From Actinomycetes bacterium (GTDB lineage Bacteria; Actinomycetota; Acidimicrobiia; Acidimicrobiales; JAJZXF01): DNA of 49,581 nt. The DNA lies in NCBI GenBank assembly GCA_021802485.1, contig JAJZXF010000009.1:1-49581 (forward strand), read 5' to 3'. Below are positions 7,760-33,070 of this stretch, in pieces; position 1 is the stretch's first letter, and every line of letters begins with the position of its first letter. The notes below the pieces were generated by a model that saw only the letters and a program-made list of their open reading frames with translations, was not told the origin of the DNA and made no database searches. The position numbers were made by a program, and so were the translations under genes.

Positions 7760-8360
7760 CGGTAATAGAGCAGTCCGTGGAACCTGGAGCTCCTTCGCTT
7801 GAAACGGAATGTGAATCCAGATAGGCGTTCAGATGCTCACACGAGATCGCGCCCTGGTGGGTCCCCAGCAGCCAGCGTTTGGCGAGGCCCGCCAACCGGT
7901 GGACCCCCGGCATCGAAACGTGCGCCGGGTCCCGCTTCCAGCGATCATGGCGGCTAGCTGGCTCGGAGCCAGCCGCTGCAATCCGGCGGTAGGCCTTTCA
8001 GCCATCAGTGAATACCACCAGCCCCGGCTCGATCATTCCAGCCACGAAGGGGAGCAGGCTCGCAGCAGCGGTGTCCCGGATCCGGCTCAGTCGGACCCAG
8101 CCGAAGCCCTTTGGTGCAAGCGTTTCGACGACGATCACCATAATCGACTTGTTGATTACCCGTATAGTGCGGGCAAACAGAGCCGGCCGGCCAGCGGAGC
8201 TTCTCCAGGTTGCGGGTGCAGGTTGCTTCATTGGGGAACCAGTCCTGGAACGATGTCCAACTGCCGGATAGTCGGCGCCGACCGGTTGGGTCCACCCATT
8301 CAACTGCTCGAATGGCGAGACTCCTCCAGTCGGCTTGGTATTGAAGCTTCCGGCGGTTCC
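7760..8360 (-). mobile_element. IS1595-family (ISXO2-like) transposase remnant
   Basis: Three minus-strand frames in series give parts of one transposase. The N-terminal zinc-binding part reads WTSFQDWFPNEATCTRNLEK then LRWPAGSVCPH. The catalytic part reads IMVIVVETLAPKGFGWVRLS and MIEPGLVVFTDG. The C-terminal part reads VHRLAGLAKRWLLGTHQGAI. The stretch between CPH and the catalytic strand, about 100 residues in homologues, is deleted, and at least one frameshift separates the last two parts. It is clearly dead. Inverted repeats were not located. It ends about 20 bp before the leuA stop. Confidence 0.75.
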
Positions 8361-8382
8361 TCTTTTTCACTTCCGTCGTCGG

Positions 8383-9927
8383 TCAGGGCCCGCTTACGAT
8401 GCGGCGCACGTCATCTCTCGACCTCGTCCGTACGAGCCGGCTGACCGCGTTTAGGTACGCCCTAGCGGAGGCCTCTACGACATCGGTCGACACACCGCGA
8501 CCCGACACCCTGACATCGCCGTCCTCGATCTGGACCACAACATCGCCCAGTGCGTCTATCCCCCCGGTCACAGACGACACGTTGAAGTCGACAAGCCGCG
8601 CCTCCACCCCGGTAGCATCCCGAATGGCTCTGCATGACGCGTCGATCATCCCATCACCGGTTGCGTCGCCTTCTGACTTGCGCCCGCCCAAGCTGATGAT
8701 CACGTGCGCTCTTGGCTCCTTCACCGTTCCGCCAGCAACCTCCAGGGACTCCAGCACGTAACCGGTCTCGACGTCAGCACCGAGCTCCTCCACGACAATC
8801 GCCTCAAGGTCCGCCTCGGTAATCTGCACCTTGCGATCGGCGAGCTCCTTGAAACGAGTAAAGGCAGCACTCAACGCTTCCCCTTGGACCTTGATTCCCA
8901 TCTTCGCGAGCGTGTCAGCAAACGCGTGCCGGCCAGAGTGCTTCCCCAGCACGATCTGGCTGCCCTTCTGGCCCACCTTCGAGGCTTCGATAATCTCGTA
9001 GGTCGACCGTTCCGCCAGCACCCCGTGCTGGTGGATGCCGGACTCGTGGGCAAAAGCGTTGCGACCCACAACTGCCTTGTTGTACTGGACGGGATACCCA
9101 GTTAGACGAGACACCAGCCTCGAGGTCCGGGAAAGCTCTTCAGTCCGCACCGATGTCGTGACCTCGTCGAAAACATCATCGCGGATCGCAAGCGCCATTA
9201 CTACCTCTTCCAGCGCTGCGTTACCCGCCCGCTCACCCAGGCCGTTCACGCATACCTCCACCTGACGAGCGCCTGCCTTCACCCCTGCAAGGCTGTTCGC
9301 GGTCGCAAGGCCAAGATCGTTGTGGCAGTGCGTCGACAGCACGTAGTCCCCTGCAATCTGCTCGCGAATATAGGTGATCATCGATCCGAAGTCCCACGGA
9401 ATCCCATATCCGACCGTGTCGGGAATGTTGAGCGTCGTCGCGCCGGCATCAACCGCGGCCGCGAGCACCTCCAGCATGAAATCAACGGGCGTACGCGTCG
9501 CATCCTGGGGACTGAACTCGACATCGTCAGTGAACTCACGTGCTCGCGCAACACCCGCTGTCGTCTCTTGAAGCACCTGTTCCGGCGTCATCTTGAGCAT
9601 GTGCTCCATATGGGTAGGGCTAGTCGAGATGAATACATGAATCCTCGCAGCATCCGCGTCTCGAAGAGCGTCCCAGCAACGGTCCACATCGCTTAGGTTC
9701 GTACGCGATAACCCGGCAATGACCGGACCATCCACCCCGCGCGCGATCGCCTGGACCGCTTCAAAGTCACCTTGGCTCGCGACTGGAAACCCCGCCTCTA
9801 TGTAGTCGACGCCGAGGTTGGCCAACTGCTCCGCAATCTCCAGCTTCTCCGCTGGATCGAGCGAGATTCCCGGAGATTGCTCACCGTCTCTCAGCGTCGT
9901 GTCAAAGATGATCAGATGCTCGGCCAT
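8383..9927 (-). CDS. leuA: 2-isopropylmalate synthase
   Basis: LeuA condenses acetyl-CoA with 2-oxoisovalerate, the committing step of leucine synthesis. The 514-residue protein has the HMGL-type TIM barrel (FDTTLRDGEQSPGISLD at the N-terminus; the metal-binding STHCHNDLGLATANSLAG; VNGLGERAGNAALEEVVMAL). A C-terminal LeuA dimer domain, site of leucine feedback inhibition, spans about residues 370-500. Homocitrate and citramalate synthases share the barrel, but length and neighbours favour LeuA. An upstream GTG (10026) lies inside the attenuator; ATG 9927 is chosen because MAEHLIIFDTTLRDGE is the family N-terminus. Transcription is governed by the attenuator upstream. Confidence 0.95.
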   Translation of the reverse strand: MAEHLIIFDTTLRDGEQSPGISLDPAEKLEIAEQLANLGVDYIEAGFPVASQGDFEAVQAIARGVDGPVIAGLSRTNLSDVDRCWDALRDADAARIHVFISTSPTHMEHMLKMTPEQVLQETTAGVARAREFTDDVEFSPQDATRTPVDFMLEVLAAAVDAGATTLNIPDTVGYGIPWDFGSMITYIREQIAGDYVLSTHCHNDLGLATANSLAGVKAGARQVEVCVNGLGERAGNAALEEVVMALAIRDDVFDEVTTSVRTEELSRTSRLVSRLTGYPVQYNKAVVGRNAFAHESGIHQHGVLAERSTYEIIEASKVGQKGSQIVLGKHSGRHAFADTLAKMGIKVQGEALSAAFTRFKELADRKVQITEADLEAIVVEELGADVETGYVLESLEVAGGTVKEPRAHVIISLGGRKSEGDATGDGMIDASCRAIRDATGVEARLVDFNVSSVTGGIDALGDVVVQIEDGDVRVSGRGVSTDVVEASARAYLNAVSRLVRTRSRDDVRRIVSGP

Positions 9928-10001: not shown

Positions 10002-10032
10002 AAAAAACCCCCTGGCCCGAAGGCACAGGAGG
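10002..10032 (-). terminator. leuA attenuator terminator
   Basis: On the minus strand CCTCCTGTGCC-TTCG-GGCCAGGGGG folds into a 10-bp stem with one bulged U and a UUCG tetraloop, followed at once by six T residues. It lies between the leader peptide gene and leuA. A competing pairing is visible: GAGGC at the leader stop codon (10055-10059) is complementary to GCCTC at 10029-10033, the 5' arm of the terminator. This provides the anti-terminator expected when ribosomes stall at the leucine codons. Confidence 0.88.
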
Positions 10033-10057
10033 CTTGGCGAGCGCGACGACGCCCGCC

Positions 10058-10138
10058 TCAACTAAGAAGCAGAACCTGAGCTGTTACTTCGCCAACTGTT
10101 GTCACCCCGCGAGGGGCTAGTACATTATGAACCTGCAT
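10058..10138 (-). CDS. leuL: leuA leader peptide
   Basis: A 26-codon ORF begins with ATG at 10138 and ends just before the stop with GTT CTG CTT CTT AGT (Val-Leu-Leu-Leu-Ser). Three consecutive leucine codons next to the stop, followed by a terminator, are the hallmark of ribosome-mediated attenuation: scarce charged tRNA-Leu stalls the ribosome and prevents termination. There is no Shine-Dalgarno sequence. The ATG lies 10 nt after the -10 box, so the mRNA should begin only about 3-5 nt before it. It is too short for routine gene finders. Confidence 0.85.
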   Translation of the reverse strand: MQVHNVLAPRGVTTVGEVTAQVLLLS

Positions 10139-10148
10139 AATGAAATGT

Positions 10149-10177
10149 ATTATGCCACAGCACGCAGCCGGAGTCAA
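10149..10177 (-). promoter_or_regulatory. leuA operon promoter
   Basis: On the minus strand TTGACT (10172-10177) and CATAAT (10149-10154) are separated by exactly 17 bp, an excellent sigma-70-type promoter. The predicted start site falls near 10142, a few bases before the leader ATG. Confidence 0.8.
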
Positions 10178-10221: not shown

Positions 10222-10932
10222 GTGCACGACGAGCGGACCAGGACGAGGATCGTGGCTATCAACAAAGCATTGCAGACAACACACGATGTCACGCAAGACG
10301 AAGCTCTGGCGCGCGCCGCAGGGCGCAAAGACCACCTAGAACACCCTCCGCGACGAACGCCCGCCTGGCTGGTCCCTCTGGCGGTAGTCCTCGTGGTTGC
10401 ATCGGTCGCCACCGGATGCGCATCGAACAACCCGGTCGCTGTTTGTGGATCACAAGCACACAAGAGCTACGCACATGCCGATCTCTCCGGCAAGAACCTG
10501 ACTGGCGATAACACCTGTGCAGATTTCACGGGGGCGACACTTACCAACGCCACCATGCAAGGCGGCGACTTCTCCGGAGCAACATTCTCAAACGCGATCC
10601 TCGACTCGGCCAACCTCTCTAGCGCAAACCTGACCAGTGCCAATCTGCTCTCCGCAAGTCTTGCAGGAGCGAGTTTCCAAGGCGCAGACCTTCGAAACGC
10701 AAACCTTTCGGGTGCAAACCTCGCTGGGACGAACTTCTCGAGTGCGAATCTGGAGGGCGCGAATCTGCTGGGGGCGTACTTGCGCAATGCCAACTTCTAC
10801 GGCGCGAACCTGAAGGGAGCTCAACTACCCTCTAGACCGGCAGGCAACGTCATGTGGCAAAGCGCAACCTGTCCCGACGGCTCGATCGTCGCCACCACCG
10901 GCGGCAGCTGCACAAGCGGAAACGGCGGTTAG
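10222..10932 (+). CDS. Pentapeptide-repeat lipoprotein
   Basis: The 236-residue protein has a cytoplasmic N-terminal stretch of about 45 residues, then a hydrophobic segment (WLVPLAVVLVVASV) ending in the lipobox-like ATGC, so Cys66 or thereabouts may be lipidated outside the membrane. Residues from about 80 to 205 are pentapeptide repeats of the A(D/N)LXX type, which fold as a right-handed quadrilateral beta-helix. The C-terminus (WQSATCPDGSIVATTGGSC) is a recurring tail in secreted members. The long N-terminal region before the hydrophobic segment is unusual for a lipoprotein, so a simple anchor is possible. The start is GTG; it is divergent from the leuA promoter. Function unknown. Confidence 0.75.
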   Translation: MHDERTRTRIVAINKALQTTHDVTQDEALARAAGRKDHLEHPPRRTPAWLVPLAVVLVVASVATGCASNNPVAVCGSQAHKSYAHADLSGKNLTGDNTCADFTGATLTNATMQGGDFSGATFSNAILDSANLSSANLTSANLLSASLAGASFQGADLRNANLSGANLAGTNFSSANLEGANLLGAYLRNANFYGANLKGAQLPSRPAGNVMWQSATCPDGSIVATTGGSCTSGNGG

Positions 10933-32932: not shown

Positions 32933-32961
32933 TTGCGAAGCTGGCGGCCGCATGTGATAAT
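32933..32961 (+). promoter_or_regulatory. ilvB operon promoter
   Basis: TTGCGA (32933-32938) and GATAAT (32956-32961) are separated by 17 bp, with TG one base upstream of the -10 hexamer. The predicted transcription start near 32968 is only a few bases before the leader ATG at 32972, the same geometry as the leuA promoter. Confidence 0.72.
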
Positions 32962-32971
32962 GGTCATCAAC

Positions 32972-33007
32972 ATGTATACGGTCACCCTTCTCGTAGTAGT
33001 CACGTAG
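32972..33007 (+). CDS. ilvL: ilvB leader peptide
   Basis: An 11-codon ORF reads M-Y-T-V-T-L-L-V-V-V-T before TAG: six of eleven residues are valine or leucine, and five of them are consecutive (CTT CTC GTA GTA GTC). An in-frame ATG at 32960 would overlap the -10 box and so cannot be on the transcript. There is no Shine-Dalgarno sequence; near-leaderless initiation is expected. Stalling here when branched-chain aminoacyl-tRNA is scarce would favour read-through into ilvBNC. Confidence 0.82.
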   Translation: MYTVTLLVVVT

Positions 33008-33070
33008 CGCACGCCCGGCATATCGCGCGTGCGCAGACGACCTCCCGAATCGGGGGGTCGTTTTATTTTA
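33007..33070 (+). terminator. ilvB attenuator: pause hairpin and terminator
   Basis: A first hairpin pairs GCGCACGC (33007-33014) with GCGTGCGC (33027-33034), beginning at the leader stop codon. A second hairpin, ACGACCTCCCGA with TCGGGGGGTCGT (33037-33061), is followed by TTTTATTTTA and is a strong intrinsic terminator. It lies 89 bp before ilvB. The arrangement leader peptide, pause hairpin, terminator is that of a transcription attenuator responding to leucine and valine supply. Confidence 0.88.

Follow-up and report, generated by a model that had tools for sequence, protein, structure and literature searches.

A putative leucine attenuator with a near-leaderless leader peptide upstream of leuA in Acidimicrobiia

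Leader-peptide systems related to the leuA element

In the attenuator of the Escherichia coli leu operon (the enterobacterial Leu_leader), an intrinsic terminator preceding leuA is governed by Leu codons, as we propose below for an actinobacterial locus. The enterobacterial element differs from that locus in its Shine-Dalgarno-led leader peptide and its classical 1:2/2:3/3:4 pairings.

In Actinobacteria, leaderless leader peptides have been described before leuA, leuS, ilvB or trp genes of Streptomyces lividans (PMC8079986), Corynebacterium diphtheriae (PMC5784534) and C. glutamicum (PMC4046766, PMC11857589). Leaderless leader-peptide attenuation is ordinary in kind for Actinobacteria, being already known from Corynebacterium and Streptomyces, and the novelty implied for a leaderless attenuator by the original prediction, made from the DNA letters of the locus, is correspondingly limited. 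The S. lividans leaders LeuL1 (leuA) and LeuL2 (leuS) resemble the element described here in that a leaderless, Leu-run leader ORF is placed upstream of the gene, and LeuL2 is followed by a terminator; however, there is no typical terminator between LeuL1 and leuA, and the Leu codons of both leaders (MRFGLLLLSCRGEGL, MRAVRLLLSEPR) lie further from the stop codon (PMC8079986). The ilvBNC attenuator of C. glutamicum (ilvB-II motif) shares BCAA codons, an intrinsic terminator and a leader start near the transcript start, one nucleotide away in C. glutamicum and within a few nucleotides as predicted from the promoter in our case. Its published model has three hairpins, the first of which spans the ORF, and an antiterminator that overlaps the terminator (PMC11857589, PMC10272879), whereas our element has two separate hairpins, both past the stop codon.

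The ilvB1 leader of Mycobacterium tuberculosis was experimentally found to be an attenuator, and replacement of its LVVI codons by AAAA abolished induction (PMC13236596). Here too, a terminator comes after a leader ORF rich in BCAA codons, and in the published model a ribosome at the stop codon masks a hairpin that forms on stalling; in contrast to our element, formation of its antiterminator is proposed to exclude that of the terminator and vice versa, and the leader is 166 nt long (PMC13236596). Finally, the LEU element of actinobacterial leuA genes includes a Leu-run leader ORF upstream of leuA, but comprises a pseudoknot and a pairing with the leuA ribosome site, with no terminator described, and the genome list of that survey contains no Acidimicrobiia (PMC1262725). 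The absence of an intrinsic terminator between leader and leuA sets the LEU element apart from ours, which carries one.

A search of the open-access literature found no paper combining Acidimicrobiia, leader peptides and attenuation. Within this literature, a variant that has two hairpins, one of them a terminator, regulatory codons close to the stop and no detectable antiterminator, and that is reused across the class, appears to be undescribed. If correct, our reading gives an account of attenuators for amino-acid genes in Acidimicrobiia, most of whose known members are metagenome assemblies, and makes the near-leaderless start a standing design of their BCAA attenuators and not an oddity.

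The leuA locus

The analysed window is a 49,581-nt stretch of contig JAJZXF010000009.1 (assembly GCA_021802485.1). It carries leuA on the minus strand (8383-9927, start at 9927), whose product scores above the cut-offs of NF002086 and TIGR00973, both NCBIfam models of 2-isopropylmalate synthase. The closest relatives of leuA share 66-80% identity over the full length (87% for one partial sequence), and their sources are labelled as MAGs of Acidimicrobiales, Acidimicrobiaceae, Acidimicrobiia or Actinomycetota, together with Ferrithrix thermotolerans. These relatives make it very probable that the window comes from a member of Acidimicrobiia, within Actinomycetota.

Ahead of leuA, the minus strand contains all components of the leader foreseen by the original prediction. 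The promoter (10177-10149) is composed of a TTGACT -35 box (10172-10177) and a CATAAT -10 box (10149-10154) with TG just before it, separated by a 17-bp spacer. It scores 10/12 and is the best of three candidates within 4 kb (shuffled sequences yield 0.7). The ATG of the leader ORF (10138) is placed 10 nt past the -10 box, and no Shine-Dalgarno site precedes it. The ORF (10138-10058; stop codon at 10060-10058) encodes a 26-codon peptide, MQVHNVLAPRGVTTVGEVTAQVLLLS, that ends Val-Leu-Leu-Leu-Ser; the three presumed regulatory Leu codons, CTG CTT CTT (10064-10072), are thus separated from the stop by a single Ser codon. The leader gave no match to the families of Rfam 15 at gathering score, Leu_leader included, and one chance-level match at a permissive threshold.

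The leuA promoter adjoins a divergent ORF (10222-10932, plus strand) that by eye resembles a pentapeptide-repeat protein gene. Downstream of leuA (7998-8370, minus strand) there are overlapping ORFs with a likeness, also judged by eye, to a degenerate zinc-ribbon transposase. Elsewhere, a HEARO RNA, an RNA associated with HNH endonuclease ORFs, was found at 38-296 on the minus strand (Rfam RF02033, 93.6 bits); it lies right at the edge of the contig, which would truncate any ORF beyond it.

Conservation of the leader ORF and of the predicted near-leaderless start

An upstream ORF with LLL, at most three further residues (mostly one) and a stop codon was found in 99 of the 105 leuA loci with upstream sequence, a set that contains some duplicates, i.e., the same genome obtained via two collections. 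Among the deviating loci are two near contig ends, one in which leuA is located directly 3' of another gene (L033), and one that keeps both hairpins although no recognised ORF of its leader contains an LLL run (L100). Such recurrence across the class places the arrangement far beyond chance. As in other attenuators, the cognate biosynthetic gene is preceded by a short ORF in which codons for the pathway product are clustered.

Among 89 distinct leaders, the gap between the last Leu codon and the stop is exactly one codon, usually Thr, in 84. The last Leu codon is CTT (CUU; 10064-10066 in the window) in 70 of the 89 leaders, while CTT makes up only 9.4% of the Leu codons within the leuA genes. 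Leaders are typically 10-17 codons long, that of F. thermotolerans DSM 19514 (L062) being MVAEQFGLLLLL, followed by the stop codon. The 26 codons of the window leader exceed most of them; a relative of the same genus, represented by the 5' end of its leuA (L112), has a 27-codon leader, so the greater length looks like a feature of the genus.

The promoter spacing is conserved as well. A TTGAC box begins 35-41 nt before the leader start in 58 of the 89 distinct leaders, compared with a mean of 0.75 per 7-nt bin elsewhere, and the window's -35 box lies at the matching distance. In most leaders, 4-10 nt separate the end of the best-scoring -10 box from the start codon; best-site picks of this kind (for leuA relatives, ilvB loci and the wider set alike) are somewhat generous, and the exact-box TTGAC count is the cleaner test. 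Shine-Dalgarno-like motifs precede 10 of the 89 leader starts, but 59 of the 105 leuA starts. Because these three properties are shared among the leaders, the near-leaderless geometry appears to be kept class-wide, and it strongly suggests that translation of the leader peptide begins very close to the transcript start. The leaderless-type initiation foreseen for this locus is therefore supported, as a prediction from promoter geometry, beyond the single sequence in which it was noticed.

Two conserved hairpins

The leader ORF is followed by two hairpins on the minus strand. Hairpin A (10057-10036), with a 9-bp stem, starts directly past the stop codon. The second, B, is an intrinsic terminator located between the leader ORF and the structural gene, as in attenuators generally, and comprises a hairpin (10035-10005) and a run of six T residues (10007-10002). 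Its predicted folding energy is -20.5 kcal/mol (z -3.84), a value reached by none of 200 shuffled sequences; A and B jointly fold at -38.0 kcal/mol (z -4.85).

The consensus fold of a 77-sequence alignment contains exactly two hairpins, A and B, with compensatory changes at all 18 consensus pairs, including all nine of hairpin A. Consensus cells of the two stems are paired in 96.4% of cases, compared with 88.1% for shuffled sequences and 36-48% when the partners are slid against each other. The loops show no conservation. A terminator was recognised in 88 of 90 distinct leaders, compared with 66 of 440 shuffled controls, and its T-run mostly lies 50-57 nt past the leader stop codon. The proposed look-up of covariation in related genomes thus bears out the terminator pairing at every pair.

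Taken at the level of the whole element, the putative identification as a leucine attenuator of leuA is backed by strong comparative evidence, drawn from the leader ORF with its Leu codons close to the stop, from the spacing of the promoter and from the terminator.

Proposed mechanism of attenuation

The element very probably acts by ribosome-mediated transcription attenuation and would thereby couple expression of leuA to the supply of charged tRNA-Leu. That control depends on leucine, and its likely direction, are suggested by the codons, by the identity of the target gene and by the analogous ilvB1 leader of M. tuberculosis. RNA polymerase would start about 3-5 nt ahead of the leader ATG, at which the ribosome would begin without a Shine-Dalgarno site. 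With leucine in good supply, the ribosome would reach the stop codon and lie with its leading edge over the 5' arm of hairpin A, or would depart, and transcription would stop at terminator B, near 10002. Under leucine shortage, it would stall at the three Leu codons just before hairpin A, leaving A free to fold in front of it, and termination would drop; hairpin A would thus act as a sensor of ribosome position. Given that the ribosome footprint is about 28 nt, the ribosome would be expected to overlie the 5' arm of A once it is at the stop codon, but not to reach A while it is stalled at the first or second Leu codon. Geometry of this kind is also proposed for the ilvB1 attenuator of M. tuberculosis (PMC13236596).

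How hairpin A could oppose the non-overlapping B is a separate matter, for which our leading guess is a steric clash among the ribosome, the hairpin and the polymerase, or else pausing, because the data speak against a conserved base-paired antiterminator. Specifically, the stalled ribosome together with hairpin A close to RNA polymerase, or a pause induced by A, may hinder formation of B, while a ribosome at the stop codon would dissolve A or leave. This explanation, plausible if still tentative, fits the strict spacing (a single codon between the last Leu codon and the stop, A directly past the stop, and a T-run mostly 50-57 nt past it) and the conservation of two non-overlapping hairpins, with no pairing partner found for B. 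Against this, its geometry is reasoned from general footprint sizes, and we know of no identical precedent for steric or kinetic attenuation without an antiterminator. Since A and the terminator are strongly conserved and an antiterminator is not, the possibility that a stalled ribosome averts termination without a competing stem is directly testable in about 135 natural variants.

A rival reading is a classical attenuator with the antiterminator of the original prediction, in which GAGGC (10059-10055) pairs with GCCTC (10033-10029) upon ribosome stalling and sequesters the terminator 5' arm. Both strings are present, the five complementary bases also occur in the same-genus relative L112, and GAGGC would be covered by a ribosome at the stop codon. 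The pairing itself did not hold up. In the window, the stable structure upstream is hairpin A, which by itself has an energy advantage of 1.9 kcal/mol, and the predicted probability of the GAGGC:GCCTC pairing is about 0.05. Across the 77 relatives, the five pairs form in 66.9% of cells vs. 67.8% with shuffled partners, and two-sided (compensatory) changes number 3, compared with 8.8 expected from shuffles. Fold, constraint, partner shuffling and pair counts all leave this antiterminator without support; we rejected it and consider the classical scheme improbable.

Two further candidate pairings were rejected. The likeness of the Leu codons to the terminator 5' arm raised the idea that the Leu codon run (CUCCUCC-like) pairs with the terminator 3' arm, but this pairing is not enriched over shuffles, and the ribosome covers these codons in both states. 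Nor did the 3' arm of hairpin A show any meaningful enrichment, over shuffles in 135 leaders, of pairing with the loop and 5' arm of the terminator. In the same 135 leaders, duplex energies of the terminator arms with the leader or with hairpin A were no better than those of shuffled sequence, and for the terminator 5' arm with hairpin A they were somewhat worse. When each leader was folded from the point at which the front of a ribosome stalled at the Leu codons would lie, the terminator 5' arm was mostly unpaired (mean pairing 0.15 to 0.20), and in none of the leaders did its pairing exceed 0.5. The leader alignment likewise gave no convincing covariation linking regions outside A and B. Given the lack of covariation and of duplex enrichment, and the free terminator 5' arm in the stalled-ribosome folds, a conserved base-paired antiterminator is unlikely, barring contacts beyond what these methods model. 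The antiterminator mutually exclusive with the terminator that characterises classical attenuators was not found, and in view of the missing conserved or enriched pairing partner the element is filed as an attenuator-like variant and not as the classical form.

It has also been proposed, for the actinobacterial LEU element, that a protein binds the RNA, and by analogy the leader peptide and its Leu codons might not be the sensor at all, the element being a protein- or ligand-binding RNA. Mutations of leader codons of S. coelicolor leuA and ilvB, as cited in the survey that proposed the LEU-element-binding protein, behaved unlike the prediction of classical attenuation (PMC1262725), which counts against an attenuation model. 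On the other hand, codon identity tracks the downstream gene on one scaffold (Leu for leuA and leuS, Val/Ile for ilvB, Ile for citramalate synthase) and the hairpin loops are not conserved, which makes a sensor of this type very unlikely here. A constitutive terminator next to a chance short ORF, without regulation, is hardly credible given the class-wide conservation of the ORF end, the promoter spacing and both hairpins.

Related elements before ilvB and other genes

A second element of similar layout occurs in the window upstream of ilvB (32933-33069, plus strand). It comprises (i) a promoter, TTGCGA-17-GATAAT (32933-32961); (ii) a leader ORF, MYTVTLLVVVT (32972-33007), starting 10 nt past the -10 box, a gap identical to that of the leuA element; (iii) a hairpin A (33007-33034); and (iv) a predicted terminator hairpin with a T-rich tail (33035-33069). 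Compared with Rfam, this leader gave weak, sub-threshold matches only. A BCAA leader ORF was recognised in 25 of 30 ilvB loci, that of the window included, and in most of them two hairpins come next.

A covariance model built from the leuA element was searched against the class, a phylum-wide sample and the window's own genome. It detected the element in at least 128 of 247 genomes of the class and in at least 11 genomes outside the class in the phylum-wide sample of 396, both values being lower bounds because strict filters were used. In its own genome the model found the window copy only, and inspection by eye of about 600 nt upstream of leuS in this genome revealed no attenuator. The model may be used to annotate the leaders of leuA and related genes in unannotated genomes.

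Six of the downstream genes were scanned with NCBIfam, and the remaining ones were named by N-terminal resemblance. The layout is constant, while the codons vary with the gene: (i) LLL for both forms of leuA and for leuS, whose leaders end LLLT-stop; (ii) runs of Val/Ile/Leu codons for ilvB, e.g., VVVLVT-stop; (iii) VIVIL-stop for leuB; and (iv) IIII for citramalate synthase. The start codon lies 4-12 nt past a -10-like box in 45 of 55 leaders of this wider set. One modular, near-leaderless scaffold may exist in Acidimicrobiia and some neighbouring actinobacterial lineages, composed of exchangeable codons, one further codon, a stop, a position-sensing hairpin and a terminator, with steric or kinetic control in place of a base-paired antiterminator. 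We put forward with some reserve this generalised form, which would stand before two only distantly related leuA forms and, with its codons exchanged, also before the genes ilvB, leuS and leuB and that of citramalate synthase.

The citramalate synthase gene is found at L169, behind a leader ORF ending IAIIIIS-stop, which makes this leader a candidate isoleucine attenuator of like layout. Many other matches of the model sit before a second form of leuA, only about 26-30% identical to leuA of the window and fitting best TIGR00970 and NF002991. At L148, L152, L155 and other loci in the range L146-L185, the leader element lies upstream of this distant form; the combination of leader and gene therefore differs among related families.
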